A stretch of DNA of 41,635 nt, taken from assembly GCA_903910795.1 (NCBI GenBank), contig CAIWAX010000197.1:1-41635 (forward strand). The letters are read 5' to 3'. Each line of letters begins with the position of its first letter. Within the stretch, counting starts at the first letter, position 1. A program made the translations under genes and the position numbers. This stretch comes from an uncultured Anaerolineae bacterium. GTDB taxonomy: Bacteria > Chloroflexota > Anaerolineae > Anaerolineales > Villigracilaceae. Below the pieces are notes generated by a model. The model was not told where the DNA came from. It did not search any database and was given only the letters and a program-made list of their open reading frames with translations. Positions 16,649 to 33,829 of the stretch are shown here, piece by piece.

Positions 16649-16709
16649 AATGATAGTTAACTTATTCAAAAGATACGGCGGCAGCCGTAACAATTCAAAT
16701 TAAAAAATA

Positions 16710-18899: not shown

Positions 18900-18918
18900 T
18901 AACTACCTTCCTTTCTCA

Positions 18919-19275: not shown

Positions 19276-19287
19276 AGCCATCTCCTA

Positions 19288-19334
19288 ATGGAATAATCTC
19301 GGCACGATTTGCTAAGCAAATCGTGCCGAGATGG
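19288..19334 (+). repeat. family A copy with a perfect 37-base palindrome
   Basis: ATGGAATAATCTCGGCACGA leads into a palindrome of 18-base arms around a single base (19296-19332). On the minus strand its end meets the AGGAG of the STAS gene. A further half-core GATTTGCTTTGCAAATC lies at 19352-19368, inside the next gene's 3' end. Confidence 0.9.
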
Positions 19335-19349
19335 ATCGGCCCGGCAAGG

Positions 19350-21191
19350 TTACGATTTGCTTTGCAAATCGGTCGGTACTATCCGAACTTTGACACGAAT
19401 TTGTTCCTTGGATTCCGGCAGTTTCACCGTCAGGCGATCAGCTTCAAAATTGGTGTACGGTTCATCATTGATCCAGACTTCGCCAATTCGAACACTGCCC
19501 TGAGGGAGAATATCAGGTGATACGCGCAAAATATTACGCGGGAAAGCGCCCGGCTGCGGCTTGAAATAGAAATCCATTGGCTGTTTGAAAATTAACAGGT
19601 TGTTGTAAACTGCTGATAAGTAGCACAACTCGGAAGAGTGGTAGAAACTCATCGAATGGCTGCCCTTGAAACGCTCAGTACCCAGTAAATAGGGCAACCC
19701 ATTTGCGAGAACGTTAAAGTAGACACCGCCATCATCATGATCGAGATGGAAAGCATTATAGAAAGCCTGAGATTCACGCGCAATTTTCAAATATTCGGCA
19801 TCGCCCTGGGTGCCATTCAGGATCAAATAAGCCAAAATGCCCTGTTCCTGTTGCCACCAGGCCTTGCGATCATGGAAGGCAAAGCGGTTCCATTCCTGTT
19901 TGCCGTATTTGACACGTTCCATCACATCGTACCAGCCAGAGCGCTGGCGATCCATGCCCACTTTTGGCATTTCCTCCGCAATCCGGCGCGCCAAAGCAAC
20001 GTATTTTTCCTTATCCTTAAGACTGTTCATACGCATCAAATTCCAGGCAATCTTCAGGTTGTGCCCAACCACGCCGCGGTTTTGCTGCCACATGTGCTTC
20101 TGGTCAAATGACCAGTCTTCAAAGAATTTCTCCTGCACAAACAAACTGTGTTGATAATCCTGGAAATGTCCTTCAATGGTATCGAAGGTGTATTCCAGGA
20201 AATCGGCATAGCGTTTCTCGCCGGTTGCCAGGAAAAGATTAATCAGGTAAGCAGGCGCATGATCACCAACCGAGTTCCAGTTCTTCTTGCCCTTATTGGC
20301 CCCAAGCGCATCGCTGCGCGCATCCAGCGAAATTGGGTCCAGATGCGAAAAGTAGCCGCCGTTTGATTTGTCCAGATAAAAACGTTCGAACAGGTCAACG
20401 GTCATCTCTGCATCCTTCAGAATGCGAGGATCGCCAGTGATGCGATAGGTTTGAATCGGGCCAGCCAGCGCATAAATTTGTTCGTACGCCGGAATAGCAT
20501 CATAGTCATCACCAAACTCGGATGCGAAAATCTTATCTTCACGGTTCCCATGCACATCAATACCGTGATACCAGTAAACAACCTTTTCATCGGGATCGTA
20601 GAAACGGAAATGATCGCGCAGATATTGGGTGCCTTTTTCGGCAACTTCCAGGAAACGATCTTCGCCTGTCATCAGGTAAGCCGAAGCCATACCATAGACC
20701 ATGCGGGAAATGGTATCGGTCTCCTGGCGGTAGTTGTCAGCTTCCTTTTTACCGGCCAGGTTAATGATGGTGCGATAATTGCGGTAATCGATTGGCTGGC
20801 CTTCTCCAAACTGAGCCCGGATGTAAAAATCTCCCAGTGAAATGATCTGTTTGATCCACCAATCGGGTCGTTCGAATCCGAAGGAATTCTCTTTTGCGCC
20901 CATATAAATGACATATTGAGCTTCAAAAGTTAGATCACCGCCCTCCGGATAAATAATTCCGTAAACATACAGATAGCGGCCGGGCACAAGCATGCTGCGA
21001 ATCTGGTCAGGGTTCGTCCACTGCCTGGGTTCTTCAAGGTTGTTTGCGATCCAACCATACGTATTTGTTTTAAGCCTGACCGTAAATTCACGATCGTCCG
21101 GCGCTTTCATGGTGAATGAATCTGACTTCTTGTCATAAGTTTGCACATAACCGGCAAGTGTGTCTGAAAAAGTGAAATTCATATTGTTCAT
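19350..21191 (-). CDS. AGE-fold (N-acylglucosamine 2-epimerase-like) protein
   Basis: The 613-residue protein has an N-terminal beta domain of about 100 residues (GYVQTYDKKSDSFTMKAPDD), then an alpha/alpha-barrel of the N-acylglucosamine 2-epimerase/cellobiose epimerase type (YGMASAYLMTGEDRFLEVAEKG, WWQQEQGILAYLI), and a C-terminal beta domain. The family acts on sugars, but the two added domains make the substrate uncertain. The ATG has GGAG eight bases upstream. The last residues (TDLQSKS) and the stop are encoded in a family A-like palindrome, so the end of the protein may be repeat-derived. It is co-oriented with the STAS-GlgX genes, as in the cyanobacterial icfG cluster. Confidence 0.78.
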   Translation of the reverse strand: MNNMNFTFSDTLAGYVQTYDKKSDSFTMKAPDDREFTVRLKTNTYGWIANNLEEPRQWTNPDQIRSMLVPGRYLYVYGIIYPEGGDLTFEAQYVIYMGAKENSFGFERPDWWIKQIISLGDFYIRAQFGEGQPIDYRNYRTIINLAGKKEADNYRQETDTISRMVYGMASAYLMTGEDRFLEVAEKGTQYLRDHFRFYDPDEKVVYWYHGIDVHGNREDKIFASEFGDDYDAIPAYEQIYALAGPIQTYRITGDPRILKDAEMTVDLFERFYLDKSNGGYFSHLDPISLDARSDALGANKGKKNWNSVGDHAPAYLINLFLATGEKRYADFLEYTFDTIEGHFQDYQHSLFVQEKFFEDWSFDQKHMWQQNRGVVGHNLKIAWNLMRMNSLKDKEKYVALARRIAEEMPKVGMDRQRSGWYDVMERVKYGKQEWNRFAFHDRKAWWQQEQGILAYLILNGTQGDAEYLKIARESQAFYNAFHLDHDDGGVYFNVLANGLPYLLGTERFKGSHSMSFYHSSELCYLSAVYNNLLIFKQPMDFYFKPQPGAFPRNILRVSPDILPQGSVRIGEVWINDEPYTNFEADRLTVKLPESKEQIRVKVRIVPTDLQSKS

Positions 21192-21212
21192 TGCGTTATC
21201 TCCTAAATAAAA

Positions 21213-21896
21213 CTAACTGCGGGGTAGGCCCGGTTTTTGGGAAGGGTTTAGCTGTTCGTGATGCAGGAAATCTTGCACGTTGGGTACCAGGTAGTAAATA
21301 ATTGCAACGGCAAACAATATTTTTGCCGCCAGCAGACTAAAAAAGGAAACACCGATGGCCACCAGGTAAATGGCTGGCCCGGTTAGAATGCGGAAATGAA
21401 AAGAGCGCATCAGGGCCGGTTGAACAGTGTCGCACATCAAATGACGGTTATAGGTGGCATACCACCAGATTAGATCCAGCAAGACACCGCCCACTATCAA
21501 ATTAATGGCGTACAGAACCGCTGAAATCTGTTGATCACTATACCGGACAAGCAGTGCAGCCGGAAAAGGAATAAGCGCCACACTTAACAAGAAAAGGATG
21601 TTTAACCAGAGCATTAACCGATCATGCCGCAGGACATGCAGGAAAACATTATTGTGCCCAACCCAGTAAATCCCAAGGACCATAAATCCCAGGAATACAC
21701 TCAGTAAATCCGGGATCATCCGAAGCAGCGCAGAGGGCAATTCGGCGGCCACCTGGCCCGGGGCCACATCCGGGATCTTGATGGAAAAAACCATCAGGGT
21801 TATCACAATCGAGAAAACACCATCACTCATCGCATTCAAGCGTTGGTTATCAGCGGCACCCTTGGCTCGAAACATATTAAAGCCGGTGACCTGCAT
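21213..21896 (-). CDS. TMEM175/DUF1211-family membrane protein (putative K+ channel)
   Basis: The protein (227 residues from the chosen start) has about six hydrophobic helices and the signature RLNAMSDGVFSIVITLMVF, a variant of the RxxxFSDGVxAIxxTL motif of bacterial TMEM175 channels, which conduct potassium. A longer in-frame reading to 22091 would run through a family A repeat (encoding IDSLSKSDRDHP) and into the VOC gene; the shorter ATG at 21896 gives a normal N-terminus but only a weak ribosome binding site, so the start is not settled (22004 is an alternative). Confidence 0.75.
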   Translation of the reverse strand: MQVTGFNMFRAKGAADNQRLNAMSDGVFSIVITLMVFSIKIPDVAPGQVAAELPSALLRMIPDLLSVFLGFMVLGIYWVGHNNVFLHVLRHDRLMLWLNILFLLSVALIPFPAALLVRYSDQQISAVLYAINLIVGGVLLDLIWWYATYNRHLMCDTVQPALMRSFHFRILTGPAIYLVAIGVSFFSLLAAKILFAVAIIYYLVPNVQDFLHHEQLNPSQKPGLPRS

Positions 21897-21940
21897 AAAG
21901 GACCTGGCTCCCTTTTTTGGAGCAGTCTCCTGTGTTCTGG

Positions 21941-21986
21941 TGGGATGATCCCGGTCCGATTTGCTAAGCGAATCGATTGGCGTGGG
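21941..21986 (+). repeat. family A copy at the 5' end of the channel gene
   Basis: TGGGATGATCCCGGTCCGAT, core TTTGCTAAGCGAATCG, then ATTGGCGTGGG. It is open in frame with the downstream channel gene, so it may be translated if an upstream start is used. Confidence 0.8.
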
Positions 21987-22056
21987 TTGCGTGTTCGACT
22001 GCATAAAATAATTCCGATCCTTGTTAGGACATGGTACCCTATTAGCTTGGCATAAA

Positions 22057-22515
22057 TCAGGAGAGAGCCGGAGGCAATGCCTGGTCAACATAACCCTGGT
22101 TTAATTCAATAATGTTGCCTTCCGGGTCGGCAACCCAGGCGCCTTTCCAGCCAGGTATAAAATCGCCAAAGTCCGCTGGGCCAAGCATGATTTTTACGGC
22201 ACTGCCGAGTTCAGCCAGTTTGGCATCCACATTGTCAACCTCAAAGGCCAGGTGGCGCACACCAGACCACGGGTAGCCGTCGTCTTTGGGCGGCTCCAAA
22301 GGGGAATCGGCTTTGGCCTTGAATAATTCCATGTAAAAATGGCCTGATTTGATAAATAAAATCTGGTCATCACCGAGCGGAATAACTCGCGCCCGTTTAA
22401 AACCAAAATACTTTGAATAAAATCGCTCGATTACAGCCGGATCTTTACAGGTCAGACCGATATGCGAAAAGATTGTCGGCACTGGTCTATTGCGAGGTTC
22501 AAAAAACGGGATCAT
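22057..22515 (-). CDS. VOC/glyoxalase-superfamily protein
   Basis: The 152-residue protein shows the paired beta-alpha-beta-beta-beta modules of the VOC fold: FSHIGLTCKDPAVIERFYSKYFGF, YMELF, VRHLAFEVDNVDAKLAEL and DPEGNIIELNQ. The two His and two Glu at these places could bind a metal ion, as in glyoxalase I, dioxygenases and epimerases. The reaction cannot be told from sequence. AAGGACG precedes the ATG. Three tandem family A units lie directly upstream. Confidence 0.83.
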   Translation of the reverse strand: MIPFFEPRNRPVPTIFSHIGLTCKDPAVIERFYSKYFGFKRARVIPLGDDQILFIKSGHFYMELFKAKADSPLEPPKDDGYPWSGVRHLAFEVDNVDAKLAELGSAVKIMLGPADFGDFIPGWKGAWVADPEGNIIELNQGYVDQALPPALS

Positions 22516-22536
22516 TTTCTTATTCGTCCTTCACTT

Positions 22537-22617
22537 ATGGAATAATCCCAGTACTTGCTTGGGATGGAATAATCCCAGTACTTGCTTGGGATGGAATAAT
22601 CCCAGTACTTGCTTGGG
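22537..22617 (+). repeat. three perfect 27-bp tandem units of family A
   Basis: Units at 22537-22563, 22564-22590 and 22591-22617 are identical. Each starts ATGGAATAATCCCAGTACTT and ends GCTTGGG; ATCCCA and TGGGAT within them can pair. They are followed by the 21-bp segment also found at 7563-7583 and by a short family B piece (ATGGAAAATACCC at 22632). The block fills the gap between the VOC and DJ-1 genes. Confidence 0.95.
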
Positions 22618-22643
22618 ACATGGTGCTGTGCATGGAAAATACC

Positions 22644-23288
22644 CTAGTGATTACTGGCAAGCGGTTTATTAATCTCAATTGGATGTAAGGCGGGTTCAGG
22701 CTTGACCACACCCGAAAGGATATCAATAACCATACGGGCAAACTGGTGACAGTGCCCGCCCGTCCGGCCGGTCACCAGATCCCCATCCACCACTACATCC
22801 TGATCAACATAAATAATACCCATGTTCCTGGCGTCTCCAAGCAGGTTGTTGTGAACAACCGCCCGGCGCCCAAGCACCATTTCTGGCGCAGGCGCGGCCA
22901 GCCACATACCATGGCAAATAATGCCCTTCAGGATAGACTTTTCTGCGAAGGCTCTTTTTAGGAAAACTGTGGCTGGCGGCAGCTTGTGAATATCTTCGGT
23001 AAACCGCAAACGATCTGACACCATACCAGCGGGGACAATCAGCGCAGAAAAACTGCGCAGAGTGGCATCATCCATACCCTCAAAGCTTTCGACATGACCA
23101 TCAAAAGGAATTTTATATTCATGCCCTTTGAAACCCGCAGCCATGACTTCAGAGGTTTGGCCCCACATACGCGATAAAAAGTGCAGGTCGACACCTTCCT
23201 CAGCAAAGCGGTGTTTGTAATACCAAATCTCAGGCTCGTAATAATCACCCTCGATCAGGATGCCGATTTTCTTCCCTTGTAATGTCAT
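22644..23288 (-). CDS. DJ-1/PfpI-family protein
   Basis: The 214-residue protein has the family layout: KIGILIEGDYYEPEIWYY at the N-terminus with the conserved Glu, SALIVPAGMVSDRLR, and the nucleophile elbow IICHGMWLAAPA with its Cys. Members include proteases, glyoxalases, chaperones and amidases; CHG with a following His-rich end (GGHCHQFARMV) does not fix which. There is no signal peptide. Its last codons lie close to a short family B piece. In the Synechocystis icfG region a DJ-1/PfpI gene is also near the AGE and STAS genes (from memory). Confidence 0.83.
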   Translation of the reverse strand: MTLQGKKIGILIEGDYYEPEIWYYKHRFAEEGVDLHFLSRMWGQTSEVMAAGFKGHEYKIPFDGHVESFEGMDDATLRSFSALIVPAGMVSDRLRFTEDIHKLPPATVFLKRAFAEKSILKGIICHGMWLAAPAPEMVLGRRAVVHNNLLGDARNMGIIYVDQDVVVDGDLVTGRTGGHCHQFARMVIDILSGVVKPEPALHPIEINKPLASNH

Positions 23289-23353
23289 CTTTCAACTCCA
23301 TAAAAGCAGTGCTGCAAACATTTAGTAAAAATATATGTAAAATCTATTTCCCA

Positions 23354-23394
23354 GGGCACCCTCCGGATGGAAAAACACAATCCGGAGGGTGTCC
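23354..23394 (-). terminator. strong hairpin between GMC and DJ-1 genes
   Basis: CACCCTCCGGAT (23357-23368) pairs perfectly with 23380-23391, and three more pairs (one G-T) extend it. The T-rich stretch on the minus strand follows after about 15 bases rather than at once, so it may be a partial terminator or an mRNA-stabilising hairpin. Confidence 0.5.
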
Positions 23395-23422
23395 GCTTCA
23401 TTTTCACAGGTTTTGGAAGGGA

Positions 23423-24964
23423 TTAACTCAGTAATCCGTGATCTTTCTTAATCATATCGCTGGCTTTTTCAGCGATCATGATGATCGGTGCGTGAATATT
23501 ACCGACATTGATAGTAGGCATGATGCTTGCGTCTACTACACGCAGCCCTTCAATACCGTAAACCTTCAATTGAGGATCCACCACCGCCATAGCGTCCGTG
23601 CCCATTTTGCATGAGCCAACCTGGTGATGATACGAATCGCAGCGGTTATGGACAAATTTGCGCAGATCATCATCATTCTTGCCGTAATCAGGGCCAGGTA
23701 ATAATTCCTTGCCAGTCAGCACCTTGGAGAAGGCCCGGGTGGCAAAAATCTCACGGCACATTCTGGTCATCTGAACCATGCGCCTCACATCGGCCTCAAC
23801 AGCCAGGTAATTGGGATTGAGCAGAGGTTTCTGGAGCGGATCGCTGCTACCCAGGCGCACCCAACCACGCGATTCAGGACGCTGCAAACCAGGGATCAAG
23901 GAAACCGAATTGGGGTTATCTGCGCCTACAATGACATCAAATGGCAGGTGCACAAAGTTGAACTGGAGATCCGGGACAGGCATGGAAGGATCAGACTTAC
24001 AGAACAAACTGACCTCGGATGTATTCAGGTGCCCGGGAGCTACCGGTTCCCGAGTTTCCATAATGGCGCCCGTCAAGACATGGTTATGGTAGTTCTCGCC
24101 AACACCCGGCAAGTCTGCAAACACAGGTTTGTTGAATTCCTGAAGTTGAGCCGCAGGACCAATGCCAGAATTGAGCAGCAAGTGCGGAGATTCAAGCGCA
24201 CCCAGGCAGACAATCACCTCATTGTTTGCGTAAACGGTCTTTTTCTGACCATTCTGAACATATTCCACGCCCACACAACGCTTATCTTTAAAAAGCAGGC
24301 GGGTTGCCTGGCAGCGAGTGAACAGAGTCAGGTTAGCCCTGGTCATGGCTGGGATGAGATAGGCAACAGCATCACTGTTGCGCTTACCATCCTTGCCGAT
24401 ATTGACGTGGTGCCAGCCGTAACCCTCCATTTGGGGACCGTTAAAATCATCAGTCGGCTTGAAGCCCAATTCCGCACAGGCCTCCAGGAAGAGAGGCGAG
24501 AGAGGGTGGTGCTCATGGTTCTTAGGATTAATCACATGCAGCGGGCCACCTTGACCAACCAGATCGCTGGTGTGGTCTTCCTGATCTTCAAGTTTCTTGA
24601 AGTACGGCAGGACGTCCTTATAAGCCCAACCGGGATTGCCCATGTAGGCCCAATTGTCATAATCCGAAGGGTGTCCACGGATATGCATCATAAGGTAAAG
24701 CTGGCTGGTACCGCCGATGATCTTGCCGCGCGGTTCGTAAATCACGCGATTATTCAAACCGGGCTGGGGAATAGTTGTGTAGCCCCAGTCAATATCCGAC
24801 CCCAGGAGGGTATACCAGAGCGAAGGGTTCTGAACATTGGGGCCAATTTGGGTACCGCCCGCTTCCAGTACCAGAACTCTGGCTTTTGGATTTTCGCTCA
24901 AGCGACTGGCAAGCACAGATCCGGCTGACCCTGCGCCAACAATAACAAAATCGTAATCACTCAT
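23423..24964 (-). CDS. GMC-family FAD-dependent oxidoreductase
   Basis: The 513-residue enzyme begins with the FAD motif YDFVIVGAGSAGSVLASRL and has the GMC signatures EPRGKIIGGTSQLYLM and ECLGALESPHLLLNSGIGP-like (CLGALESPHLLLNSGIG). The catalytic region reads YHHQVGSCKMG with the active-site His. In the final segment GNIHAPIIMIAEKASD, an His stands where many family members have Asn. Such enzymes oxidise primary or secondary alcohols to carbonyls; choline dehydrogenase and aryl-alcohol oxidase are relatives. Its start codon has GGAGG encoded in the last codons of the NTF2-like gene two bases upstream, so the two are coupled in translation. Confidence 0.9.
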   Translation of the reverse strand: MSDYDFVIVGAGSAGSVLASRLSENPKARVLVLEAGGTQIGPNVQNPSLWYTLLGSDIDWGYTTIPQPGLNNRVIYEPRGKIIGGTSQLYLMMHIRGHPSDYDNWAYMGNPGWAYKDVLPYFKKLEDQEDHTSDLVGQGGPLHVINPKNHEHHPLSPLFLEACAELGFKPTDDFNGPQMEGYGWHHVNIGKDGKRNSDAVAYLIPAMTRANLTLFTRCQATRLLFKDKRCVGVEYVQNGQKKTVYANNEVIVCLGALESPHLLLNSGIGPAAQLQEFNKPVFADLPGVGENYHNHVLTGAIMETREPVAPGHLNTSEVSLFCKSDPSMPVPDLQFNFVHLPFDVIVGADNPNSVSLIPGLQRPESRGWVRLGSSDPLQKPLLNPNYLAVEADVRRMVQMTRMCREIFATRAFSKVLTGKELLPGPDYGKNDDDLRKFVHNRCDSYHHQVGSCKMGTDAMAVVDPQLKVYGIEGLRVVDASIMPTINVGNIHAPIIMIAEKASDMIKKDHGLLS

Positions 24965-24966
24965 TG

Positions 24967-25422
24967 TTAACCTCCAGAGATCTGCCGCAGGAAGGGTGCA
25001 AATGGCTTGGAGTCATGCACATTGCGCATGTAAGCGATTTTCCCATCGCGGAAGCGAAAAAAATTCATAGCATAAGCTTCAATGGGTTGATCAGGGTATT
25101 TGGCTGCCGCAGCAGTAATATGCGAAAGTGATGAGCCTTCATTACCTTCTACTGCCATTTCTTTCAGCTCATTTTTAAATACGGCATAAGCCTGACCCAT
25201 ACCCGCCATCATTGGGCGAAGCGTGGCAAGCCCTTCAATATGCCCGGCCAACTGTTCATCCATCACCATATCATCTGTAAAAAGATCACACCAGGCATCC
25301 CATTTTCCAGCGTTGGCATATTCATAATATTTGCGAATGGTTTCATGATTTTCCATCGCATGCGAGGCATCTGATCCTGACCAGATTGCCTCGGCATCAC
25401 TAAAATTATTTACGGTAGTCAT
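24967..25422 (-). CDS. NTF2/SnoaL-like protein (1)
   Basis: The 151-residue protein is a single cone-shaped NTF2/SnoaL-like domain: ENHETIRKYYEYANAGKWDAWCDLFTDDMVMDEQ, then a long strand pair and FFRFRDGKIAYMRNVHDS. Family members are aldol cyclases, isomerases, hydrolases or pure binding proteins, so no reaction is assigned. A stretch of AAAGGAAA lies before the ATG with a rather long spacing. It ends two bases before the GMC gene and provides its ribosome binding site. Confidence 0.78.
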   Translation of the reverse strand: MTTVNNFSDAEAIWSGSDASHAMENHETIRKYYEYANAGKWDAWCDLFTDDMVMDEQLAGHIEGLATLRPMMAGMGQAYAVFKNELKEMAVEGNEGSSLSHITAAAAKYPDQPIEAYAMNFFRFRDGKIAYMRNVHDSKPFAPFLRQISGG

Positions 25423-25467
25423 AAGACATATTTCCTTTACGCTGATCTCTAAAGATGAGACTTGTAT

Positions 25468-26472
25468 TTATGCACCAACCGAAACTCCGCCACCAACCAT
25501 CTGCTGCATCAGCTCAAGCGTGCCCTCATTACTCCAGGTTTCAACAATCTGACCGCCTTCAAATTTGGCAATGATGATTTGTCCCCAGGTGACTTTTTTA
25601 CCAGTTGCGGGGATGCCCATTAAGCTACCTGTCTGGGTTCCGGTCTGCTTAAACCAGCCAAGCACCATGTCGCCATCGGCCAGGATGGTATTGAATTCCA
25701 CATGCAGATCGGGCATAGCGGTACGCAGCATGCTTACCTCAGATTTCAATCCCTGGCTGCCAGGTTTATAATCTGGCTGGCTGACATATACTGCCTGAGG
25801 ATAAAAAACCTTATCGGCAAAATCAAGATTACCCTTGTTCCAAAGCTCATCCACAAGCTGTCTGAAAATTTCCTTATTCGCGTTGGGCGATATGTAAATT
25901 CCCGATAATCTCTGAGGAGCGGGCGGATCCTGGCGGTTGGCATCAAAAGTGGGAGAACCGGGAACAACGCCCATTTGCTGCATCACACCCAAACCATCCC
26001 ATTCCTGCCAGCGTGCGTCGATCAGACCATTCTTGTTGAAACGCATTAACGCGGTGCCGGTCCAACATACAAACTTGCCAGTAGGCGGGGCAAAACCCAT
26101 AAAATTGCCCTTATGTGTACCGCTCAACACGCCGCGAACACCGCAGGTATCCCCTTCGGCGACCACATGAGTAACCCGGAAAGCCAGATCCGGAAGGCCC
26201 TGATAAAATTGAAGATACAATTGTTTGAAGGCTTCGGGCCCAAACAGATCCTGAAAACCCGCCCCGCCATAACTGATAAACTCGGGGGCAAGCAATTCTC
26301 GGAAAACATCCAGGTTCGCCCGGTTGGCTTCGTCAAACAGGCGAACCATGGCATCCTTCATTTCATTGACAGAGAGCGGCCTGCCAGCGGCACTTTTAGT
26401 GCCGCTGGCAGTATTTTCTCCCTGCCAGATCATCTCAGCTAGGTAATTATTTCCATCTGGCACACTGCTCAT
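25468..26472 (-). CDS. tandem NTF2/SnoaL-like (ester cyclase-type) protein (2)
   Basis: The 334-residue protein contains two SnoaL-like domains in a row. Both carry the ester-cyclase pattern: in domain 1 LSGTHKGNFMGFAPPTGK and DGLGVMQQMG, in domain 2 QTGTQTGSLMGIPATGKKV and LELMQQM. ATG at 26472 is chosen over an in-frame TTG eight codons upstream because GGAG lies at good spacing only before the ATG. Spacing to its neighbours (about 45 bases each side) supports one operon. Confidence 0.82.
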   Translation of the reverse strand: MSSVPDGNNYLAEMIWQGENTASGTKSAAGRPLSVNEMKDAMVRLFDEANRANLDVFRELLAPEFISYGGAGFQDLFGPEAFKQLYLQFYQGLPDLAFRVTHVVAEGDTCGVRGVLSGTHKGNFMGFAPPTGKFVCWTGTALMRFNKNGLIDARWQEWDGLGVMQQMGVVPGSPTFDANRQDPPAPQRLSGIYISPNANKEIFRQLVDELWNKGNLDFADKVFYPQAVYVSQPDYKPGSQGLKSEVSMLRTAMPDLHVEFNTILADGDMVLGWFKQTGTQTGSLMGIPATGKKVTWGQIIIAKFEGGQIVETWSNEGTLELMQQMVGGGVSVGA

Positions 26473-26516
26473 ATCCACTCTCCAGAAATCAGGCAAATTC
26501 TTTAGAAAGTACGGGA

Positions 26517-26933
26517 TTACTGCTTGGTTCCATTAAGCTGCTGGATCATGCTGAGCATATCTACTTCATACCAGCTTTCAACGATCACGCCTTTTTCGAT
26601 CCGCAGTACTCCAATTTCTGTCCAGGAAGCTTTACGACCCGAAGCCTTCATACCCAATAAGTCCGCACCAGTGTGAGTGCCGCTTTGCGTAAAACGACCA
26701 ACCACTTGATTTTCATCAGCAACCATCAAATCGATTTCCATGTGATAATCAGGCATCGCTTTCTGGAACATTTCCGCCAAGAATTTGACACCTTCCGGAC
26801 CGGGAGGCAGTTGTGGGGCACTCGGGCTGGTATGATCCGGAGAAAAGAGAGCATCTGCCATAGAAAGGTTGCCCGCGTTCCAGACTTCTTCGATCATGCG
26901 GCGCATGATATGTTTATTTTCTTGGATTGACAT
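26517..26933 (-). CDS. NTF2/SnoaL-like ester cyclase-type protein (3)
   Basis: The 138-residue protein is a typical SnoaL-like polyketide/ester cyclase homologue: NKHIMRRMIEEVWNAGNLSMADALF, then QSGTHTGADLLGMKASGRK and a terminal DMLSMIQQLNG. The same arrangement appears in several neighbours, so it belongs to one expanded family. AAGGAG precedes the ATG at seven bases. Its TAA stop is part of a truncated family A sequence (TAATCCCGTAC on the minus strand). Confidence 0.85.
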   Translation of the reverse strand: MSIQENKHIMRRMIEEVWNAGNLSMADALFSPDHTSPSAPQLPPGPEGVKFLAEMFQKAMPDYHMEIDLMVADENQVVGRFTQSGTHTGADLLGMKASGRKASWTEIGVLRIEKGVIVESWYEVDMLSMIQQLNGTKQ

Positions 26934-26944
26934 TCGATTTCTCC

Positions 26945-28252
26945 TTAATGGCTGGGGGGAGTAACAAACGGTGAACGAGACCAGAACTGGTCATATTCCG
27001 TTGCGCCATCCCCAAAGATAGCGCCTTTGCCAGCGATGACCTTGCCATCTTTCCAACGCAGTACATGCGCCACTTCGATATCCATGGTTTTCTCTGAGGC
27101 ATCTTTGCGATAACCACGGTTGCGGGTCAAATCAACAGAGTAATCACCGGTCACGAGAACTTTACCGGCCACTGGATCCATGCGGAAGCTGTGGTCAGAC
27201 ATTTCTCCGACTTTGCCCATAAAGGCCAGAAATTCATCGCGGCTGTAATACCAACCCGAAAGTTCGTTATGGCCGGGCACCTGCCAGACCATGTCTTCAG
27301 CCCAATACTGGTTGATACGCGCCATGTCGCCGGAAGAAAGCGCGGAATAAGCCTCACCAACATGCTCAGGCGTGATGGATGTCTCAATGTCAAATTGCTG
27401 GGGCGGCTGCTCAGGGGTTGGGATAGCGCCAATCTGCTGCATCATACCCAACATGTTTAATTCGCCCCAACCTTCGCAGATCTTGCCACCTACAACGCGG
27501 TCAATCCCGATCGAAGTGACTTCCACTGGTTTGTTGCTGGCTGGAATGCCATAAAATTCACCGGTGTGTGTGCCGCGGAATGTCATTCGGATTGCCGACA
27601 TCTCGCCTTCAGTGACAATGTCATCCATGGTCATATGACCATCGGGGAAGGCTTCGTGCCAAACCTTGACCATTCCCGCCACGCCATCCGGGCCTTGCTT
27701 AATATCCTGACCACCTGCCCCATGAGCGGTAAATTCGGGGGCAACCAATTCCCGGGTGATGGAATAATTCTTTTTGTTCCACAGTTCTTCAAACCAGCGG
27801 GAAAATAGCAGCCGGTGCTCATCGGCATGTGACAGGGAGCCTTTATGCAAAGCAGCTTCCACGTCTGCGCGAGAAGGCAGCACTTCGGTAGCGTTCGCCC
27901 TTTTATTGGGAGCGGGCATGACAAAGGTTGCATTCGGATCATTTTTTCCAGGAATTACCTGGAATTCGATGACAACCGTTTCACCAATAAAGATTTTGTC
28001 GCCATTTTTCAAATCATGGGGTGAGTTAATGGCTTCCCCATTGATATAGGTACCATTTGTGGAACCGAGATCCTGAATGGTATATCCAGAAGCGGTTTTG
28101 ATCAACTTTGCATGAGACCGGGAAAGAGCGCGGTCATCAATGGTAATGGAATTGGAAGATTCGCGTCCCATTGTGATCTGGCCATCAACCAGTTCAAATG
28201 CCTGTCCAACAGCAGGCCCTTTTTGCACTACGAGTTTGAATATATCAGCCAC
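26945..28252 (-). CDS. FHA domain fused to two NTF2/SnoaL-like domains (4)
   Basis: Residues 1 to about 105 form an FHA domain with all usual features: ITMGRESSNSITI, LSRSHAKL, DLGSTNGTYINGEAI. FHA domains bind phosphothreonine peptides, so this protein may be recruited by a Ser/Thr kinase target. Residues of about 140-285 form an ester-cyclase-like SnoaL domain (MTFRGTHTGEFYGIPASNK, LGMMQQIG). About 295-435 form a second NTF2-like domain (VGEAYSALSSGDMARI, VLRWKDGKVIAGKGAI) that is nearly duplicated by the gene at 29292. The start is GTG with CAGGAG upstream. No kinase gene is seen in the window. The fusion is unusual and the central oddity of this operon. Confidence 0.88.
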   Translation of the reverse strand: MADIFKLVVQKGPAVGQAFELVDGQITMGRESSNSITIDDRALSRSHAKLIKTASGYTIQDLGSTNGTYINGEAINSPHDLKNGDKIFIGETVVIEFQVIPGKNDPNATFVMPAPNKRANATEVLPSRADVEAALHKGSLSHADEHRLLFSRWFEELWNKKNYSITRELVAPEFTAHGAGGQDIKQGPDGVAGMVKVWHEAFPDGHMTMDDIVTEGEMSAIRMTFRGTHTGEFYGIPASNKPVEVTSIGIDRVVGGKICEGWGELNMLGMMQQIGAIPTPEQPPQQFDIETSITPEHVGEAYSALSSGDMARINQYWAEDMVWQVPGHNELSGWYYSRDEFLAFMGKVGEMSDHSFRMDPVAGKVLVTGDYSVDLTRNRGYRKDASEKTMDIEVAHVLRWKDGKVIAGKGAIFGDGATEYDQFWSRSPFVTPPSH

Positions 28253-28304
28253 GTTTTTCTCTCCTGCCCGCCAACAGATTTGAGGAAATTACAGCCCGTT
28301 TTAC

Positions 28305-28342
28305 TGAACGATTCGCTAAGCAAATCGTGGGTACTTTCCATT
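28305..28342 (-). repeat. hybrid B/A element between the FHA and tautomerase genes
   Basis: On the minus strand it reads ATGGAAAGTACCCACGATTT, then GCTTAGCGAATCGTTCA. This matches 12877-12913, where the same hybrid is translated. Confidence 0.8.
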
Positions 28343-28365
28343 CTGTGTGGCGATGCCAGCGAAAA

Positions 28366-28713
28366 TTATTTGCCTTCCCAAAGTTTTTGCGCATGATCCC
28401 AACTATGACTATGATCGGTGGGCTCTACTCCGCTTTTATTTTGGGATTCAATAAAGTTACGCATGATCTCGTTGGACTTTTTGTGCATATCGGCATAATC
28501 CGGCCCGTACAGGAAAGGCAGGTCAGGCAAGGGAGTTCCCGCGATGGACCATTCCATGGGTGGGGTTTCCTGGATAATGCAATAAGTGTAGGGACGGGCT
28601 ACATCACCAACAACACTGATAAAGGTGTCCGTCATCTTTTTGAGCAGATCACGTTTTTGCTCAGGGCTGGTCAACACAACCCCTTCAATGACCTGGATCG
28701 TAATAATTGGCAT
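28366..28713 (-). CDS. 4-oxalocrotonate tautomerase-family protein
   Basis: The 115-residue protein starts MPIITIQVIEG; after Met removal Pro1 would be the catalytic base of the tautomerase superfamily. QKRDLLKKMTDTFISVV and the ETPPMEWSIAG segment fit the first 60-70 residues of 4-OT enzymes, here followed by about 45 extra residues ending in a His-rich stretch (DHSHSWDHAQ). 4-OT enzymes interconvert 2-hydroxy-dienoates and 2-oxo-enoates; relatives dehalogenate or hydrate. GAAGGAG lies before the ATG. Confidence 0.82.
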   Translation of the reverse strand: MPIITIQVIEGVVLTSPEQKRDLLKKMTDTFISVVGDVARPYTYCIIQETPPMEWSIAGTPLPDLPFLYGPDYADMHKKSNEIMRNFIESQNKSGVEPTDHSHSWDHAQKLWEGK

Positions 28714-28813
28714 ATTTTTCTCCTTCGACGAACAATGCGCCGATTAACTAACTCGAAAGCTTCCAATAATATCCCCGGGAACAAGGGGAGCAAGCATTTA
28801 CTTTTTTGAAAAC

Positions 28814-29281
28814 TTAGTTTCCAAGCTGTTTCATCAGTTCTGCGCTGTCAAAAGCGCTCCAGGCTTCACTTATTTTTCCATCTATTAAGTGGGCAATCAG
28901 GATGCCCATAATTGAAATAGAGCGGCCTGCAGGCTCAACCCCGGCAAAAATTCCCCGGTGAGTGCCACTGAAGTTATAACGAACTACCACTGTATCGCCT
29001 TCTCCGATAACCTCATCCTGAGAGAAATAGATATCGGGAAAAGAAGTGCGAAACAAGGTCACCCTTTGCTTCAATTGTTCACGTCCTTGCGTCAAACCAC
29101 GCGCTTGAGAACTGCCATCAGACTGAACAGGCGCATCCAAAACATAGTTGGTAGTATAGATTTCATCGACAACATCCAACTGGCCCTGATTTAATACTTG
29201 ATTGAAGTGACGGTCCAAAACAGCTTTATTACCTTCAACAAAAGTGTTTTTATCCATACCGAACTTATGAGTATTTTCCAT
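28814..29281 (-). CDS. NTF2/SnoaL-like protein with repeat-derived N-terminus (5)
   Basis: From the chosen ATG the protein has 155 residues: NKAVLDRHFNQVLNQGQLDVVDEIY, RYNFSGTHRGIFAGVEPAGRSI and SAFDSAELMKQLGN give a standard SnoaL/ester-cyclase domain. The first nine residues MENTHKFGM come from a family B repeat (29258-29281). The start at 29281 lies ten bases after the stop of the upstream gene and has no clear ribosome binding site, so translation is probably coupled. MDK at 29257 is an alternative start. A longer reading to 29362 would overlap the upstream gene and is not preferred. Confidence 0.75.
   Translation of the reverse strand: MENTHKFGMDKNTFVEGNKAVLDRHFNQVLNQGQLDVVDEIYTTNYVLDAPVQSDGSSQARGLTQGREQLKQRVTLFRTSFPDIYFSQDEVIGEGDTVVVRYNFSGTHRGIFAGVEPAGRSISIMGILIAHLIDGKISEAWSAFDSAELMKQLGN
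29258..29281 (-). repeat. family B copy used as a gene start
   Basis: On the minus strand ATGGAAAATACTCATAAGTT and CGGT, the same 24-base unit as the tandem copies at 36413-36481 with two changes. Its ATG is the best start for the 28814 gene. Confidence 0.75.
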
Positions 29282-29291
29282 TAAGAGTTCG

Positions 29292-29744
29292 TCAATGAGT
29301 AGGTGGAGTGACCATAGGCGAGCTTGACCAGAATTGGTCATACTCGGTGGCGCCATCGCCAAAAATGGCGCCTTTGCCAGCGATCACTTTGCCATCCTTC
29401 CAACGAAGAACATGCACAACTTCGATATCCATGGTTTTATCGGTCTGGCTGGCGCGGTTTCCACGATTACGGGTAATATCGGCTGAATATTCACCGGTTA
29501 CGATCACTTGCCCGGCGATATTTTCCATGCGGAAGCTATTTCCAGAAAGCTGCCCAACGTTTCCCATAAAAGCCAGGAACTGATCCCGGCCAAAATACCA
29601 CCCTGAAAGGCGGTTATGTCCCGGAACCTGCCAGACCATCTCTTCGGCCCAAAACTCCTTGATGCGCTCCATATCACCAGAAGCCAGAGCAGAATAGGCC
29701 TCTTTCACGTGCTCAGGTGTAATTATTGCTTTAACGGTAGCCAT
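29292..29744 (-). CDS. NTF2-like protein, near-duplicate of the FHA-fusion C-terminus (6)
   Basis: The 150-residue protein aligns along its whole length with the last about 150 residues of the FHA fusion: both have ITPEHVxEAYSAL, VWQVPGHNxLSGWY, DKTMDIEV-type/EKTMDIEV, HVLRWKDGKVIAGKGAIF and DGATEYDQFW. This points to a recent gene or domain duplication inside the operon. GGTGGAG lies before the ATG. Its TGA stop lies ten bases before the next gene's ATG. Confidence 0.85.
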   Translation of the reverse strand: MATVKAIITPEHVKEAYSALASGDMERIKEFWAEEMVWQVPGHNRLSGWYFGRDQFLAFMGNVGQLSGNSFRMENIAGQVIVTGEYSADITRNRGNRASQTDKTMDIEVVHVLRWKDGKVIAGKGAIFGDGATEYDQFWSSSPMVTPPTH

Positions 29745-29769
29745 CTACACTCCACCTTTGCTCGCCTGC

Positions 29770-30192
29770 TTAGTCGGCCAGGCGGGCGGGAATACCCTTC
29801 AGTTTGAAAACAGACCAGAAAAAGCGGTCGACACTATGTTGATCGCCAGTATGTACATGCACATCATAAATCTTGCCATCCTTGACGCCGTAGGAAGTGC
29901 AGGTCGGGAAGTCAAAATGTTCATTTCCGATCTTGCCGTGGCCCATGTGCTTCTCGATCACGGTGCCATCATCCAAAACACCAAAGTGAACATGATCCAC
30001 CACGATACCAGCCTTGAAGAGCGAACCAAAGAAAGCGATCACTGCATCCACCCCTTCCATGCGGGCAGAGAGCGGGTGATGGCCGGGCATGGTCCAACTG
30101 ATATCAGGGTGGAAAATTTCACGCTTGATACTTTCCATGTCACCCTTGCCAAAATAATCGTACATTTTGAAAACCAACTGAGTGTTATCCAT
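29770..30192 (-). CDS. NTF2/SnoaL-like protein (7)
   Basis: The 140-residue protein has one NTF2-like domain: NTQLVFKMYDYFGKGDMESIKREIF, ISWTMPGHHPLSARMEGVDAVIAFF and DGKIYDVHVHTGDQHSVDRFFW. The SWTMPGHHPL segment resembles the VWQVPGHNxL segment of the 29292 product and the FHA fusion, so they form one sub-branch. AGGAG precedes the ATG at good spacing. Confidence 0.82.
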   Translation of the reverse strand: MDNTQLVFKMYDYFGKGDMESIKREIFHPDISWTMPGHHPLSARMEGVDAVIAFFGSLFKAGIVVDHVHFGVLDDGTVIEKHMGHGKIGNEHFDFPTCTSYGVKDGKIYDVHVHTGDQHSVDRFFWSVFKLKGIPARLAD

Positions 30193-30258
30193 TTTTCATC
30201 TCCTATTGATATATAAACGGTTAAAGGATTTAGGTGATTATTTGACTATCAGACTCAT

Positions 30259-30702
30259 TTAAAGCCTGGCAAACCCTGGAGAATACTTGAAAGGTTCTAC
30301 GGTAGCATTGTAAGAAGCAATTTCCAAACCAAACGCATTTTGCTGGCTTGAGCGCACGACCCAACGCTGGGTGGCATCCATTGAAACCCGTTTGCTCTTG
30401 GGCGCAGGCGCCACCCACCAGGAAGCCTGCCAGCCGACAAGGATATCAAGGGTAAATTCGTTGCCATTTGGAGTAATTTTGACTTCGTTGACAAAGTGAT
30501 TTTCATCAAAGAAAATATTGGTTACGCGGTCATACCAGACCTTAAAAGAGGCATAGTCCTTGATATCGCCATCCGGAAAAGTCATCACCAGCCCGTTGGA
30601 AGCCAGCATGGGATAAACTTGTTCGATAGGCAGGTGAAAATCAAGCGCCTGATACCAGGCAGCGACAAAATTTTGAATCTGTTGTTCCGAAATGTTGCTC
30701 AT
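30259..30702 (-). CDS. NTF2/SnoaL-like protein (8)
   Basis: The 147-residue protein has an NTF2-like pattern (QIQNFVAAWYQALDFHLPIEQVYPML, FKVWYDRVTNIFFDENHFV, DILVGWQASWWVAPAPKSK) but departs from the ester-cyclase motifs of its neighbours. The many Trp residues in the strand region suggest a hydrophobic pocket. GGAG lies ten bases before the ATG. Assignment to the NTF2 fold is by overall pattern and context. Confidence 0.7.
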   Translation of the reverse strand: MSNISEQQIQNFVAAWYQALDFHLPIEQVYPMLASNGLVMTFPDGDIKDYASFKVWYDRVTNIFFDENHFVNEVKITPNGNEFTLDILVGWQASWWVAPAPKSKRVSMDATQRWVVRSSQQNAFGLEIASYNATVEPFKYSPGFARL

Positions 30703-30717
30703 AAAAATATTCTCCGA

Positions 30718-31077
30718 TTAAGAATTAGGGGTAAAACCCAACATGCCAGTAAAGTGATGGATGGCCTTTCCGTTTTGCAAAACGAAACAGTCATAAACCC
30801 GGGCCACACCTGCAGCGACTTTGATGGTTGCCTCAAACATGACCGCGTCTTCAGTTTCCATGAACTTTTCGGTGGAAATCAACTTGATGTTTCCCAGATT
30901 TGCCAGGTAGCCGGTAAAATGCTTGATCAGGGCTTCCCTGCCTTTCACATGCAGGTCATAACCAACCAGTTCTGCATCTGGCGCATATTGTGTATTGATC
31001 AAACCGACAACATTATTGGCCTCAAGCAAAGCCACCTGACGATTGTAAAAATCTTTACCAGTGGTATTTTCTGTCAT
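30718..31077 (-). CDS. NTF2/SnoaL-like protein (9)
   Basis: At 119 residues this is the shortest of the group: FYNRQVALLEANNVVGLINTQYAPDAELVGYDLHVKGREAL-type N-terminus (DLHVKGREALIKHFTGYL) and VARVYDCFVLQNGKAIHHFTG at the end match SnoaL_2/DUF4440-like proteins. AAAGGAA precedes the ATG. It is the first NTF2-like gene after the TPP enzyme, 15 bases from it. Confidence 0.78.
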   Translation of the reverse strand: MTENTTGKDFYNRQVALLEANNVVGLINTQYAPDAELVGYDLHVKGREALIKHFTGYLANLGNIKLISTEKFMETEDAVMFEATIKVAAGVARVYDCFVLQNGKAIHHFTGMLGFTPNS

Positions 31078-31092
31078 CTTTACATTCCTTTG

Positions 31093-32799
31093 TTATTGTC
31101 CACAAGTATTACCCACCCGTTCAGGGTGAGTATCCGATTCAAGCACCAGGTCAACCAGGAACGGGCCGGGAGTGGCCAACATTTGCTGGACGGCACCGGC
31201 GATTTCCCAGGGTTTTTCAACCCGTATGCCTGGTACTCCCATACCTTTCGCCATTTCGACAAAACGCAACTGAGGGTATGACAAATCAAAACTCATTGGG
31301 AAATCGTGCGCGGGGATGTTTTGTTCTTTCCAATATTGATTGATATTAAGTTGAAGCAAGCGATAAGACGCGTTATTGCAAACTACGAACTTGGCATTTA
31401 CATTATGGCGCGCCGCGGTCCAAAGCGCCTGGATCGTGTACATACTGCCGCCATCACCTGTAAAACCGATCACGGTCTTTTCAGGGTTTGCCAGCTTGGC
31501 CCCAATGGCACCCGGTATGCCTACACCCAATGAACCACCACGGGTTAGAAAATATTGACCGGTGCTGGTAGGCGGAAAATATCGAACCACTGCGGGCGAA
31601 CTGGTCAGAGCTTCATCAAAAATGACCGTATCACTGGAAAGGTGCGGAACCAGTTCTTCCATAAAGCGCGCCATTTTCAGTGGAACAGAGTCACGGCTGG
31701 CATGATCAGCATCCAGAGCGGCTGACAATTTGGCGGCCTTGGCAGACCCAATTTCCTTTGTGCGCGCTTTCGCCGAGCTTTTTTGGGGTGCGGTCATCAT
31801 TTCTTCCAACGCCTGAGCCAATAACGCCAGGGTCAGTTTGGGATCTGCAACAACACCCACATCCACACGGTGATTTTTCGCAATCTCGTAAGAGTTCAAA
31901 TCGATGTGATAAACCTGGGCATTTTTTGCAAATACGTCACCCAGTTCAGGGAAAACCTCGGGTAAAACGTAAGTACCCACGATCAAATTGGCATCCCCTT
32001 TTTGCATCAAGGGCAGACTATTTTGACCAAACATGTGTCCAGTCATGCCCATGTACAGAGGGTGACTGTAAGCCATATTTAACTCACCGGCATCGGCTTC
32101 CCAGACCTCCGCTCCCAACAACTCTGCCACTCGCGCTAATTCAGCCGAGGCGCCGGAATAAGCCACACCATCCCCCATAAAAATCATTGGGGTTTTGGCG
32201 GAGGCCAAACCTTCAGCCATCGAGCGGATGGTAGCAGTTTCTGGAGCCACCCGGGTGGAAGGGATCGAGGTTGGGCGAACTTCCTCGGTAGAAACTGCAT
32301 CCAGGATATCCTGGGGGATGCAGACATATACCGGTCCCTTCGGTGGGGTCGCGGCGATCTTGATAGCCCGGCGCAAAGTTCTTAGTAGTGAAGAGGGATG
32401 GAGCACCATGGTTGAGTACTTGGTGACGGGCTCCATAAAACCAACCAGATCGCCTGCCATCTGGGCATCCATATTCATGTACTTAACGCCTGCGTCGCCG
32501 CCGATCACCACCAACGGGGCATGACCGCGCTTGGCTTGATACAGAGCGCCAACCGCATTCCCAATGCCAGGTGATGAGTGCAACTGGACCAGGGTAGGCT
32601 TCTGGGTGGCGCGCGCATATCCATCAGCTGCCATGACTGCCACAGTTTCCTGAAGCGTCAGGATATATTTCATTTCCGGATAGCTTGAAACAGCATCCAG
32701 AAAACCCTGTTCCACAGTTCCGGGATTGCCAAACATATGATTCATGCCATCGGCAAGGAACTGTTCAATAATAGTGTAGCGGCCTGTTTTTTCAGTCAT
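31093..32799 (-). CDS. TPP-dependent enzyme of the benzoylformate decarboxylase/acetolactate synthase type
   Basis: The 568-residue enzyme has the three-domain layout of this family. The activating Glu lies in LTLQETVAVMAADGYAR, a His in VQLHSSPGIGNAVGAL matches the active-site His of benzoylformate decarboxylase, and the TPP motif is GDGGSMYTIQALW followed by NN about 25 residues on. The segment FGNPGTVEQ has Thr where benzoylformate decarboxylase has a catalytic Ser. A 2-oxo acid decarboxylase (or carboligase) giving an aldehyde is the best guess. ATG at 32799 is chosen because GGAG is nine bases upstream; that GGAG overlaps the alternative TTG at 32814. It leads the NTF2-like genes. Confidence 0.87.
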   Translation of the reverse strand: MTEKTGRYTIIEQFLADGMNHMFGNPGTVEQGFLDAVSSYPEMKYILTLQETVAVMAADGYARATQKPTLVQLHSSPGIGNAVGALYQAKRGHAPLVVIGGDAGVKYMNMDAQMAGDLVGFMEPVTKYSTMVLHPSSLLRTLRRAIKIAATPPKGPVYVCIPQDILDAVSTEEVRPTSIPSTRVAPETATIRSMAEGLASAKTPMIFMGDGVAYSGASAELARVAELLGAEVWEADAGELNMAYSHPLYMGMTGHMFGQNSLPLMQKGDANLIVGTYVLPEVFPELGDVFAKNAQVYHIDLNSYEIAKNHRVDVGVVADPKLTLALLAQALEEMMTAPQKSSAKARTKEIGSAKAAKLSAALDADHASRDSVPLKMARFMEELVPHLSSDTVIFDEALTSSPAVVRYFPPTSTGQYFLTRGGSLGVGIPGAIGAKLANPEKTVIGFTGDGGSMYTIQALWTAARHNVNAKFVVCNNASYRLLQLNINQYWKEQNIPAHDFPMSFDLSYPQLRFVEMAKGMGVPGIRVEKPWEIAGAVQQMLATPGPFLVDLVLESDTHPERVGNTCGQ

Positions 32800-32816
32800 T
32801 GCAAAGCGCTCCAAAG

Positions 32817-32853
32817 AAAAATCTCAAAACGGCTGGAATTCAGCTTAAGATTT
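32817..32853 (-). terminator. hairpin between DJ-1 and TPP genes
   Basis: AAAATCTTAAGCTG and CAGCCGTTTTGAGATTTTT can form an imperfect stem with a T-run at its end on the minus strand. It may attenuate transcription into the operon but lies just before the TPP gene's ribosome binding site, so full termination is unlikely. Confidence 0.35.
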
Positions 32854-33678
32854 TTACCAACCGTACCGCTTGAGGCCATTCTCGAGTACTTCGACCATCA
32901 ACTCGCCAACCAGCCGGGAATCTTGTGTTGAACGACCGGTCAGGAAGGGGTAATCCAGGACGGTGGAAATAGTGTGACCAACTCCACCGTGATACTGACC
33001 GGTAGGGCCAACAGCATCACGTAAAATAAGCTCCAATGGATAAAAGGGAGGCCCAAAATTGGCATCGACACCCAACACGCCAGTGCCGTCCTTGTAATCG
33101 TATTCCATCGCATGGCCGGTAACATGCTTGCCAGCAATAATGCTTTTGCGATCGGTCCAATCACGTGCAAAAGCCAGGCAAGTGACGCAATAGCATTCAG
33201 CAGCTATCAACTTGCCCTGGGCTAAAAAGCCCAAAATGACATCATGCAACTGCTGATTGTTTACCATATCGATCATGGGGCCGCTACCGCCGGGAAGCAA
33301 GAGAGCATCATATTGCTTCAAATCCTCCCAGCACTTTTGCCGATCATTGTAGTATTTCTCCAGTCCATGCCCAAAATTGGCAGAATTAAAATAGGGGCGG
33401 ACAGGGAACCATGTGGATAGGTTTATGGGGTTGTCAAGGCGTTTTGAAGCATCGATTTCCCGCGTTTTACTCGCATAATATTCATCGGTAACAACTTTAT
33501 CCAGGGGCGGATCAAGATAACCTGCTTCCATGCTGGGCGGCAGAGCATGCGCACGCCGGCCTTTAGCAGTCATAAAAACTGTCTCATAGCCCCCGGCATC
33601 GAGTACATCGAGCGGTCCAACCAGCTCTTCGCCCCAATAACCAAACTCAGAAATACACACCAAAATTTTCTTAGCCAT
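32854..33678 (-). CDS. DJ-1/PfpI-family protein, larger form
   Basis: The 274-residue protein has the DJ-1 layout with insertions: ILVCISEFGYWGEELVGPLDVLDAGG-type N-terminus (FGYWGEELVGPLDVL), DALLLPGGSGPMIDM and a nucleophile elbow AAECYCVTCLAFA with three cysteines in place of the usual CHG. The shape recalls large class I glutamine-amidotransferase-like proteins and Hsp31-type members. GGAGG lies six bases before the ATG at 33678. It is the first gene of the leftward operon, with the divergent promoter region behind it. Confidence 0.82.
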   Translation of the reverse strand: MAKKILVCISEFGYWGEELVGPLDVLDAGGYETVFMTAKGRRAHALPPSMEAGYLDPPLDKVVTDEYYASKTREIDASKRLDNPINLSTWFPVRPYFNSANFGHGLEKYYNDRQKCWEDLKQYDALLLPGGSGPMIDMVNNQQLHDVILGFLAQGKLIAAECYCVTCLAFARDWTDRKSIIAGKHVTGHAMEYDYKDGTGVLGVDANFGPPFYPLELILRDAVGPTGQYHGGVGHTISTVLDYPFLTGRSTQDSRLVGELMVEVLENGLKRYGW

Positions 33679-33829
33679 CAACTACCTCCATAAAGCTGGT
33701 GATTCATTTATCGACATACAATATAAGATATATAAGACAAATATTATCACATTATATGTGGTATTGCAATTAACAATTGGTTAAAAAAAACATATTTAGT
33801 ACATTTGGGTGATGAGATAAAATAGAAAT
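33679..33829. promoter_or_regulatory. AT-rich divergent promoter region with a candidate operator
   Basis: This 151-base gap separates the leftward operon from the rightward Sir2 gene and is much more AT-rich than the genes. TATCACAT (33745-33752), TAT, then ATGTGGTA (33756-33763) is a 19-base inverted repeat (7 of 8 pairs) that could be a regulator binding site. A TAAAAT lies near 33818, 10-15 bases before the Sir2 ATG, too close to be certain as a -10 element. Confidence 0.4.

Follow-up and report, generated by a model that had tools for sequence, protein, structure and literature searches.

Gene content of the island and the fold of its NTF2-like proteins

The window analysed here is a stretch of 41,635 nucleotides that forms one complete contig (CAIWAX010000197.1) of the 5.0-Mb genome of an uncultured Anaerolineae bacterium of the Villigracilaceae (assembly GCA_903910795.1), and it carries, at positions 24967-31077, a run of genes encoding NTF2/SnoaL-like proteins. 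A preliminary description, made from the letters alone, had counted eight such genes with about eleven domains and regarded the run as a possible system in itself. The domain number was borne out by Pfam matches and structure models, which together gave 11; however, the domains are distributed over nine genes and not eight (C, D, E, F, G, I, J, K and L, in the lettering A to V used for the locus), gene D being recognised by its model. These nine stand with one tautomerase gene and are flanked by genes for a thiamine pyrophosphate (TPP) enzyme and a GMC oxidoreductase, all on the minus strand. The run belongs to a 19-kb island (14373-33681, genes A to V) with the order DJ-1 protein, TPP enzyme, NTF2-like genes with the tautomerase and GMC genes, DJ-1 protein, VOC protein, AGE-type epimerase, STAS protein, GlgX, STAS protein, RsbW-like kinase and SpoIIE phosphatase. 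The tautomerase, TPP enzyme, two DJ-1 proteins, VOC protein and GMC oxidoreductase that had been noted beside the run, all leftward, were confirmed in coordinates and strand. The proposal of a system stood insofar as the genes are co-conserved and not a chance expansion, but the run is not the whole unit: the larger island with its AGE-type epimerase, GlgX and RsbW/STAS/SpoIIE switch had been missed.

Two of the nine proteins were assigned to the fold with the help of models. Gene D (30259-30702) has no match in a Pfam scan; its AlphaFold model, built on an alignment of 25 homologues, has a predicted local distance difference test score (pLDDT) of 88.8 and the element order helix-helix-strand-strand-helix-four-strand, which is that of NTF2-like proteins, and it matches NTF2-like folds in Foldseek at a template modelling (TM) score of about 0.7. 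Gene C (30718-31077) has a weak SnoaL_2 match under the Pfam cut-off, and the best Foldseek matches of its model (pLDDT 93.7) are ketosteroid-isomerase/SnoaL folds. The cone-shaped alpha+beta NTF2-like fold is thus indicated by Pfam matches (for C, below the cut-off) and, for C and D, by models that superpose on solved folds. The remaining genes were assigned by Pfam: E (29770-30192), F (29292-29744) and L (24967-25422) encode SnoaL_2 proteins; G (28814-29281, the start codon being set at 29281 where the mechanical open reading frame (ORF) begins at 29362) and J (26517-26933) encode SnoaL proteins. FHA-fused, tandem and near-duplicate domains had all been described from the letters and are all present: I (26945-28252) joins an FHA domain to a SnoaL domain and a StmD/NgnD-like NTF2 domain that also has matches in the Protein Data Bank, K (25468-26496) has two SnoaL domains, and F and the last domain of I share 74% identity. 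In the tree, J is sister to the second domain of K. The tautomerase, H (28366-28713), matches PF01361. An inverted repeat of 14 pairs with a 3-base loop, followed by a T-rich tail on the plus strand, lies at 26381-26411 within the N-terminal linker of K.

The density of this one fold, which had been remarked on as unusual, held up against the whole genome: 10 of its 12 SnoaL_2 matches and six of its eight SnoaL (PF07366) matches above cut-off fall within the 6-kb run, with a nominal binomial p of 5e-28 for the clustering, a value that ignores tandem duplication. The intergenic gaps from A to M measure 2-113 bp, and gaps this short suggest that A to M may be transcribed as one unit.

Conservation of the island and variation of its NTF2 set

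The A-V block has the same order in the window and in two other Anaerolineae genomes (G004 and G010), at 59-91% protein identity, the island of G010 being without G. Because the identical order stands on independently assembled contigs of these two genomes, it is not a misassembly. Among 150 related genomes, B (the TPP enzyme), Q (the AGE-type protein) and D were each found, in single copy, in an identical set of three, and therefore the island is present whole or absent. Purifying selection was found on every gene tested across the three species (nominal omega < 0.17, with synonymous sites near saturation). Some peculiarities of G010 were seen as well: its GMC gene is broken into two overlapping frames, a frameshift or assembly error (L032, 9201-10734), further F-like copies at 63-69% identity occur on contigs C280 and C408, and contig L081 encodes a second A-like protein along with a G-like one.

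A core consisting of the ThiJ_like protein, the TPP enzyme, a DJ-1 protein, the AGE-type protein and GlgX, often with STAS proteins, an RsbW-like kinase and a SpoIIE phosphatase, is present in about 50 further genomes and was found in Bacteroidota, Pseudomonadota, Cyanobacteriota, Deinococcota, Actinomycetota, Acidobacteriota and other Chloroflexota, that is, in at least seven phyla. The neighbourhoods of 50 homologues of the TPP gene in public genomes hold homologues of A, N, O and D, together with homologues of window genes outside the run, namely the AGE, STAS, GlgX, STAS and RsbW-like kinase genes; the SpoIIE-type phosphatase was seen in fewer of these loci, many of which stop short of its position. 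Plasmids of Nostoc, Runella, Deinococcus, Gemmobacter and Streptomyces also carry copies, and the island has probably spread horizontally. On the plasmid of Nostoc sp. ATCC 53789 (L082, 18546-19206), two Nif11-type leader peptides are encoded near the TPP gene, adjoining a GMC gene.

Co-occurrence was counted in 65 loci of the B family, which share about 50% identity or more with B, were picked by similarity to B and not at random, and are in many cases clipped by contig ends. Among them, A was found in 63, N in 54, Q in 49, D in 46, GlgX in 44, the VOC protein in 41, the GMC oxidoreductase in 35, any STAS protein in 31 and any NTF2 protein in 50. The B family is island-specific, because other Chloroflexota have TPP paralogues (L121-L124; 38-40% identity to B) that stand without island neighbours. 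The accessory enzymes of other islands, a molybdopterin dehydrogenase, a metallo-beta-lactamase fold and an HpcH aldolase, are likewise carbonyl or redox enzymes. In Candidatus Thiodiazotropha (L060, 17559-19598), one protein joins an L-like NTF2 domain to a metallo-beta-lactamase fold, a fold that stands as separate genes in other islands. Streptomyces islands are adjoined by glycogen and trehalose genes of the GlgX, GlgB and GlgE or TreS types.

The NTF2 genes are the variable, lineage-specific part of the island. They number 0-9 per locus across the 65 loci, an approximate count in which distant members may be missed, and NTF2-rich versions like that of the window exist elsewhere: 12 domains were counted in G004, 10 in three Runella islands and 7-8 in several Dyadobacter and Arundinibacter islands. 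Recurrence of the gene set in other genomes had been named as a check on the run, and C and D are indeed common to several phyla, alongside the same TPP and DJ-1 genes. A Prolixibacteraceae locus (L080) has both E and F, and a locus of another Chloroflexota family (L120) holds a C-D-F-tautomerase-SnoaL-SnoaL set with AGE and GlgX. The SnoaL members of Anaerolineae and Bacteroidota form separate tree groups, with low support for the deep nodes; because the groups split by lineage, the tree suggests that SnoaL genes multiplied separately in the two phyla within the same genomic setting. Inheritance of the whole array as a block between phyla was considered and rejected for the SnoaL members, given this grouping by lineage and with the same low deep support. 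Gene L is tied to one GMC subfamily: where the GMC protein scores above 570 bits, L lies within 151 bp in 6/6 loci, compared with 1/29 of the remaining GMC-bearing loci. The GMC gene of the window, M (23423-24964), was assigned by profile match and is paired with L.

Residues of the enzymes, the tail motif and the partner switch

The TPP enzyme B (31093-32814) is a full-length relative of benzoylformate decarboxylase (BFD), its closest match among solved proteins, and keeps the equivalents of Glu47 and His70 of BFD. Its cofactor and catalytic residues (E56, G453-D454-G455 and N480-N481) are those of thiamin diphosphate (ThDP)-dependent 2-oxo acid enzymes in the broad sense. However, Ser26 of BFD is replaced by Thr33 and His281 by Val287, Thr and Val being present in at least 97% of 48 sequences, and B scores 308 bits against the BFD equivalog, for which the cut-off is 493. 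Identification of B as BFD was therefore rejected on the score and on the two replacements. Since Glu47, His70 and the GDG and NN residues are kept and Ser26 and His281 are replaced, B is probably an active enzyme and yet is not to be filed as BFD. The ThiJ_like/DJ-1 protein A (32854-33681; PF17124, E 1e-21) retains Cys163 in at least 97% of 50 sequences, and the DJ-1/PfpI protein N (22644-23288), found by profile match, retains Cys125-His126 in the conservation alignment.

The NTF2-like proteins of the run have well-studied relatives from which they also depart. F and the last domain of I are full-length relatives of StmD and NgnD, the [6+4]/[4+2] cyclases of streptoseomycin and nargenicin, with a best E of 2e-25 for I against NgnD; however, only three of seven compared pocket residues are the same in the last domain of I, where Y13, P37 and M69 are retained, Phe takes the place of Y55 and W67, Trp that of F34 and Thr that of N87, so that of the active-site set Y13, Y55, W67 and M69 two are kept and two replaced. 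The other solved matches of I are GarA, nearest for the FHA domain, and ester cyclases with IdmH; the FHA signature (GR, SRSH and TNG) is intact by eye. The PF07366 domains of G, I, J and K lie above the Pfam cut-off and have the SnoaL ester cyclases, SnoaL2, AknH and IdmH as solved relatives, but they score 27-44 bits against a cut-off of 200 for the SnoaL methyl ester cyclase family (NCBIfam NF033407), and unlike those enzymes they stand in no polyketide context.

A short motif, A-[EQ]-x-[ILVMT]-W-x-[GS], is shared by the N-terminal tails of K (AEMIWQG) and L (AEAIWSG) and by the C-terminal tail of H, whose extension ends in AQKLWEG. It is present in all three species, in which the flanking residues differ while the motif stays, and the relative of H in L120 retains it. 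Ten matches, all in K, L or H, were found among 6602 ORF tails of the fetched loci, where 0.85 were expected from shuffled tails, a count that overstates the significance because the motif was defined after being seen. When the genome was searched, the matches outside the run were all internal or spurious, and no other credible protein tail carried the motif. The pattern hints that the tails of K, L and H may dock to a common partner and would fit physical association. In G004 (L067, 14398-15282), an additional SnoaL domain separates the N-terminal tail motif of L from the protein's own NTF2 domain.

The regulatory half of the island lies at 14373-21191 and is co-located in the same way in G004 and G010. 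It consists of Q (19350-21191), an AGE-type (GlcNAc 2-epimerase-like) protein with an N-terminal extension; the STAS protein R (18919-19281); the glycogen debranching enzyme GlgX, S (16710-18899; TIGR02100, 647 bits, cut-off 640.9); the STAS protein T (16240-16578); the RsbW-like HATPase U (15787-16212); and V (14373-15707), a response-regulator receiver joined to a SpoIIE phosphatase. The signature residues of an RsbW-type switch are kept: E43, N47 and G105-G106-x-G108 in the N-box and G-box of U, S57 in T and S62-S63 in R. As in the RsbW/RsbV/RsbU (SpoIIAB/SpoIIAA/SpoIIE) switches, a kinase and a SpoIIE phosphatase occur together with two STAS proteins that retain the serine; unlike them, the island is without a sigma factor gene, and the switch is embedded with GlgX and AGE. 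The gene content is that of an icfG-type cluster. In two papers, the icfG cluster of Synechocystis PCC 6803 (slr1852-slr1862) is described as containing an AGE-type protein, two STAS proteins, GlgX, a SpoIIE-type phosphatase and an RsbW-like kinase; Slr1861 is given as the kinase and anti-SigC factor, Slr1856 and Slr1859 as the STAS substrates and IcfG as the phosphatase, and the cluster is linked to carbon metabolism (PMC12329169, PMC8670252). The likeness is one of gene content as described in those papers, the island being set beside Synechocystis by description and not by sequence. The island differs in its STAS-RsbW-SpoIIE order, in the receiver domain of its phosphatase and in its enzyme wing, a TPP enzyme, GMC oxidoreductase or NTF2 array being unmentioned in the passages on Synechocystis.

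Two further genes lie between N and Q: O (22057-22515), a VOC/glyoxalase-fold protein found by profile match, and P (21213-22091), a TMEM175-like membrane protein that is present in all three Anaerolineae islands and whose true start may be downstream. Beyond the island, positions 5836-14306 hold two MinD-like genes, a dCache-GAF sensor, a HEAT/cNMP-binding protein and an O-methyltransferase; these genes are syntenic in G004 and partly in G010, whose contig ends there, and in islands of Contendobacter, Deinococcus and Streptomyces the SpoIIE gene is likewise followed by MinD-like genes. A search of a phage collection gave one match, which was unrelated.

A putative role in sugar-derived carbonyl turnover

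The island is conserved and its genes are linked, the parts of the switch are intact, and the genes are under selection. The reading we favour, at a probability of about 0.45, is that the NTF2 run is the variable wing of a carbon- or stress-gated island that would turn over sugar-derived carbonyls by means of the TPP enzyme and lineage-specific NTF2 enzymes. Judged by family knowledge, from which every chemical step is taken, the partner switch would turn the island on or off by carbon or stress status, by analogy with the cyanobacterial icfG cluster; GlgX and the AGE-type protein would act on glycogen-derived or other reducing sugars; oxidation would be carried out by the GMC enzyme, and in other lineages by a molybdenum aldehyde-oxidase-type enzyme; B would cleave or join carbon skeletons at a carbonyl; the NTF2 enzymes and tautomerase would isomerise, dehydrate or cyclise reactive carbonyl intermediates; dicarbonyl by-products would be handled by the DJ-1 and VOC proteins; and the tail motif could tether some of the island enzymes to a common partner. 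A more specific version, in which several NTF2 enzymes and the tautomerase are docked through the A-[EQ]-x-hydrophobic-W-x-G tail and, under carbon gating, convert glycogen-derived sugar carbonyls via the TPP family into a small molecule, with different lineages recruiting different NTF2 sets for different products, is doubtful.

Several points weigh against the favoured reading. Promoter and terminator scans gave no more sites than shuffled sequence. Islands of Streptomyces, Gemmobacter and some Chloroflexota are without NTF2 genes, and because such islands exist the NTF2 genes are dispensable for the role of the core. The signal of the switch is not clear either, because the Synechocystis operon is reported as repressed by salt (PMC8670252), while slr1854 of the cyanobacterial cluster is induced by butanol and its product listed as a general stress protein.

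The relatives of the NTF2-like proteins invite a different view, in which the island is a small-molecule biosynthetic cluster whose NTF2/SnoaL proteins are cyclases or pericyclases and whose TPP enzyme forms a C-C bond of the scaffold. Among solved proteins, SnoL/SnoaL2, AknH, IdmH and the NgnD/StmD cyclases are some of the nearest relatives of K, I and F; in Foldseek, C is matched by, among others, TerC and two enediyne proteins, SgcJ and SgcE6; and leader peptides stand beside the TPP gene in the Nostoc carrier. However, the island genes that were scanned include no polyketide synthase, nonribosomal peptide synthetase or terpene synthase, the largest ORF of the window is at most 1218 amino acids, the NgnD pocket is only partly kept in I, and the core is tied to GlgX and AGE rather than to a scaffold enzyme; this view deserves to be kept in mind but is unlikely. 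Somewhat less likely again is a general stress or carbonyl-detoxification island, in which DJ-1, VOC and NTF2 proteins would guard against reactive aldehydes, the glycogen enzymes would give reserve carbon, and the switch would activate all of them in stress, the NTF2 proteins forming no ordered pathway. The two DJ-1 proteins with their cysteines kept, the VOC protein, the glycogen and trehalose genes beside Streptomyces islands and the stress listing of Slr1854 all agree with such a role, but it leaves unexplained the dedicated TPP enzyme, the GMC-L pair kept across phyla and the strong selection on each of the nine NTF2 genes, and the Synechocystis operon is repressed and not induced by salt.

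A catabolic cluster for an external compound, for example an aromatic or terpenoid acid, with B as a BFD-like decarboxylase, is improbable: BFD is the closest solved protein to B, and tautomerase, VOC and NTF2 proteins are in general also known from aromatic degradation, but the His281 equivalent is Val in nearly all B homologues, the equivalog score falls short, the conserved core has no uptake transporter, ring hydroxylase or CoA ligase, and GlgX and AGE are left unexplained. Chance local expansion of a duplication-prone fold without common function would account for the grouping of SnoaL members by lineage and for the close pairs (J with the second domain of K, F with the last domain of I), but it is very improbable, as C, D, E-F and L-M keep the same partners in other phyla, purifying selection acts on all of the paralogues, which are deep, and NTF2-rich islands seem to have arisen on two or more occasions.

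A search of the open-access literature returned no prior description of a TPP enzyme with SnoaL/GMC, anti-sigma and GlgX/AGE genes beyond the cyanobacterial icfG papers, a negative that is weak evidence given its restriction to open-access papers. The island is apparently an enlarged variant of the icfG-type cluster, with an enzyme wing that has apparently gone undescribed. The switch half has been studied in cyanobacteria for decades while its metabolic output is still open, and the island offers concrete candidate effectors, the same switch being joined to one TPP family and a variable NTF2 set in distant phyla as well as on plasmids. It is also a case of one small fold that appears to have been multiplied separately in at least two phyla within the same genomic setting, and the cultured carriers Dyadobacter, Runella, Spirosoma and Streptomyces open the way to knockouts and metabolomics.

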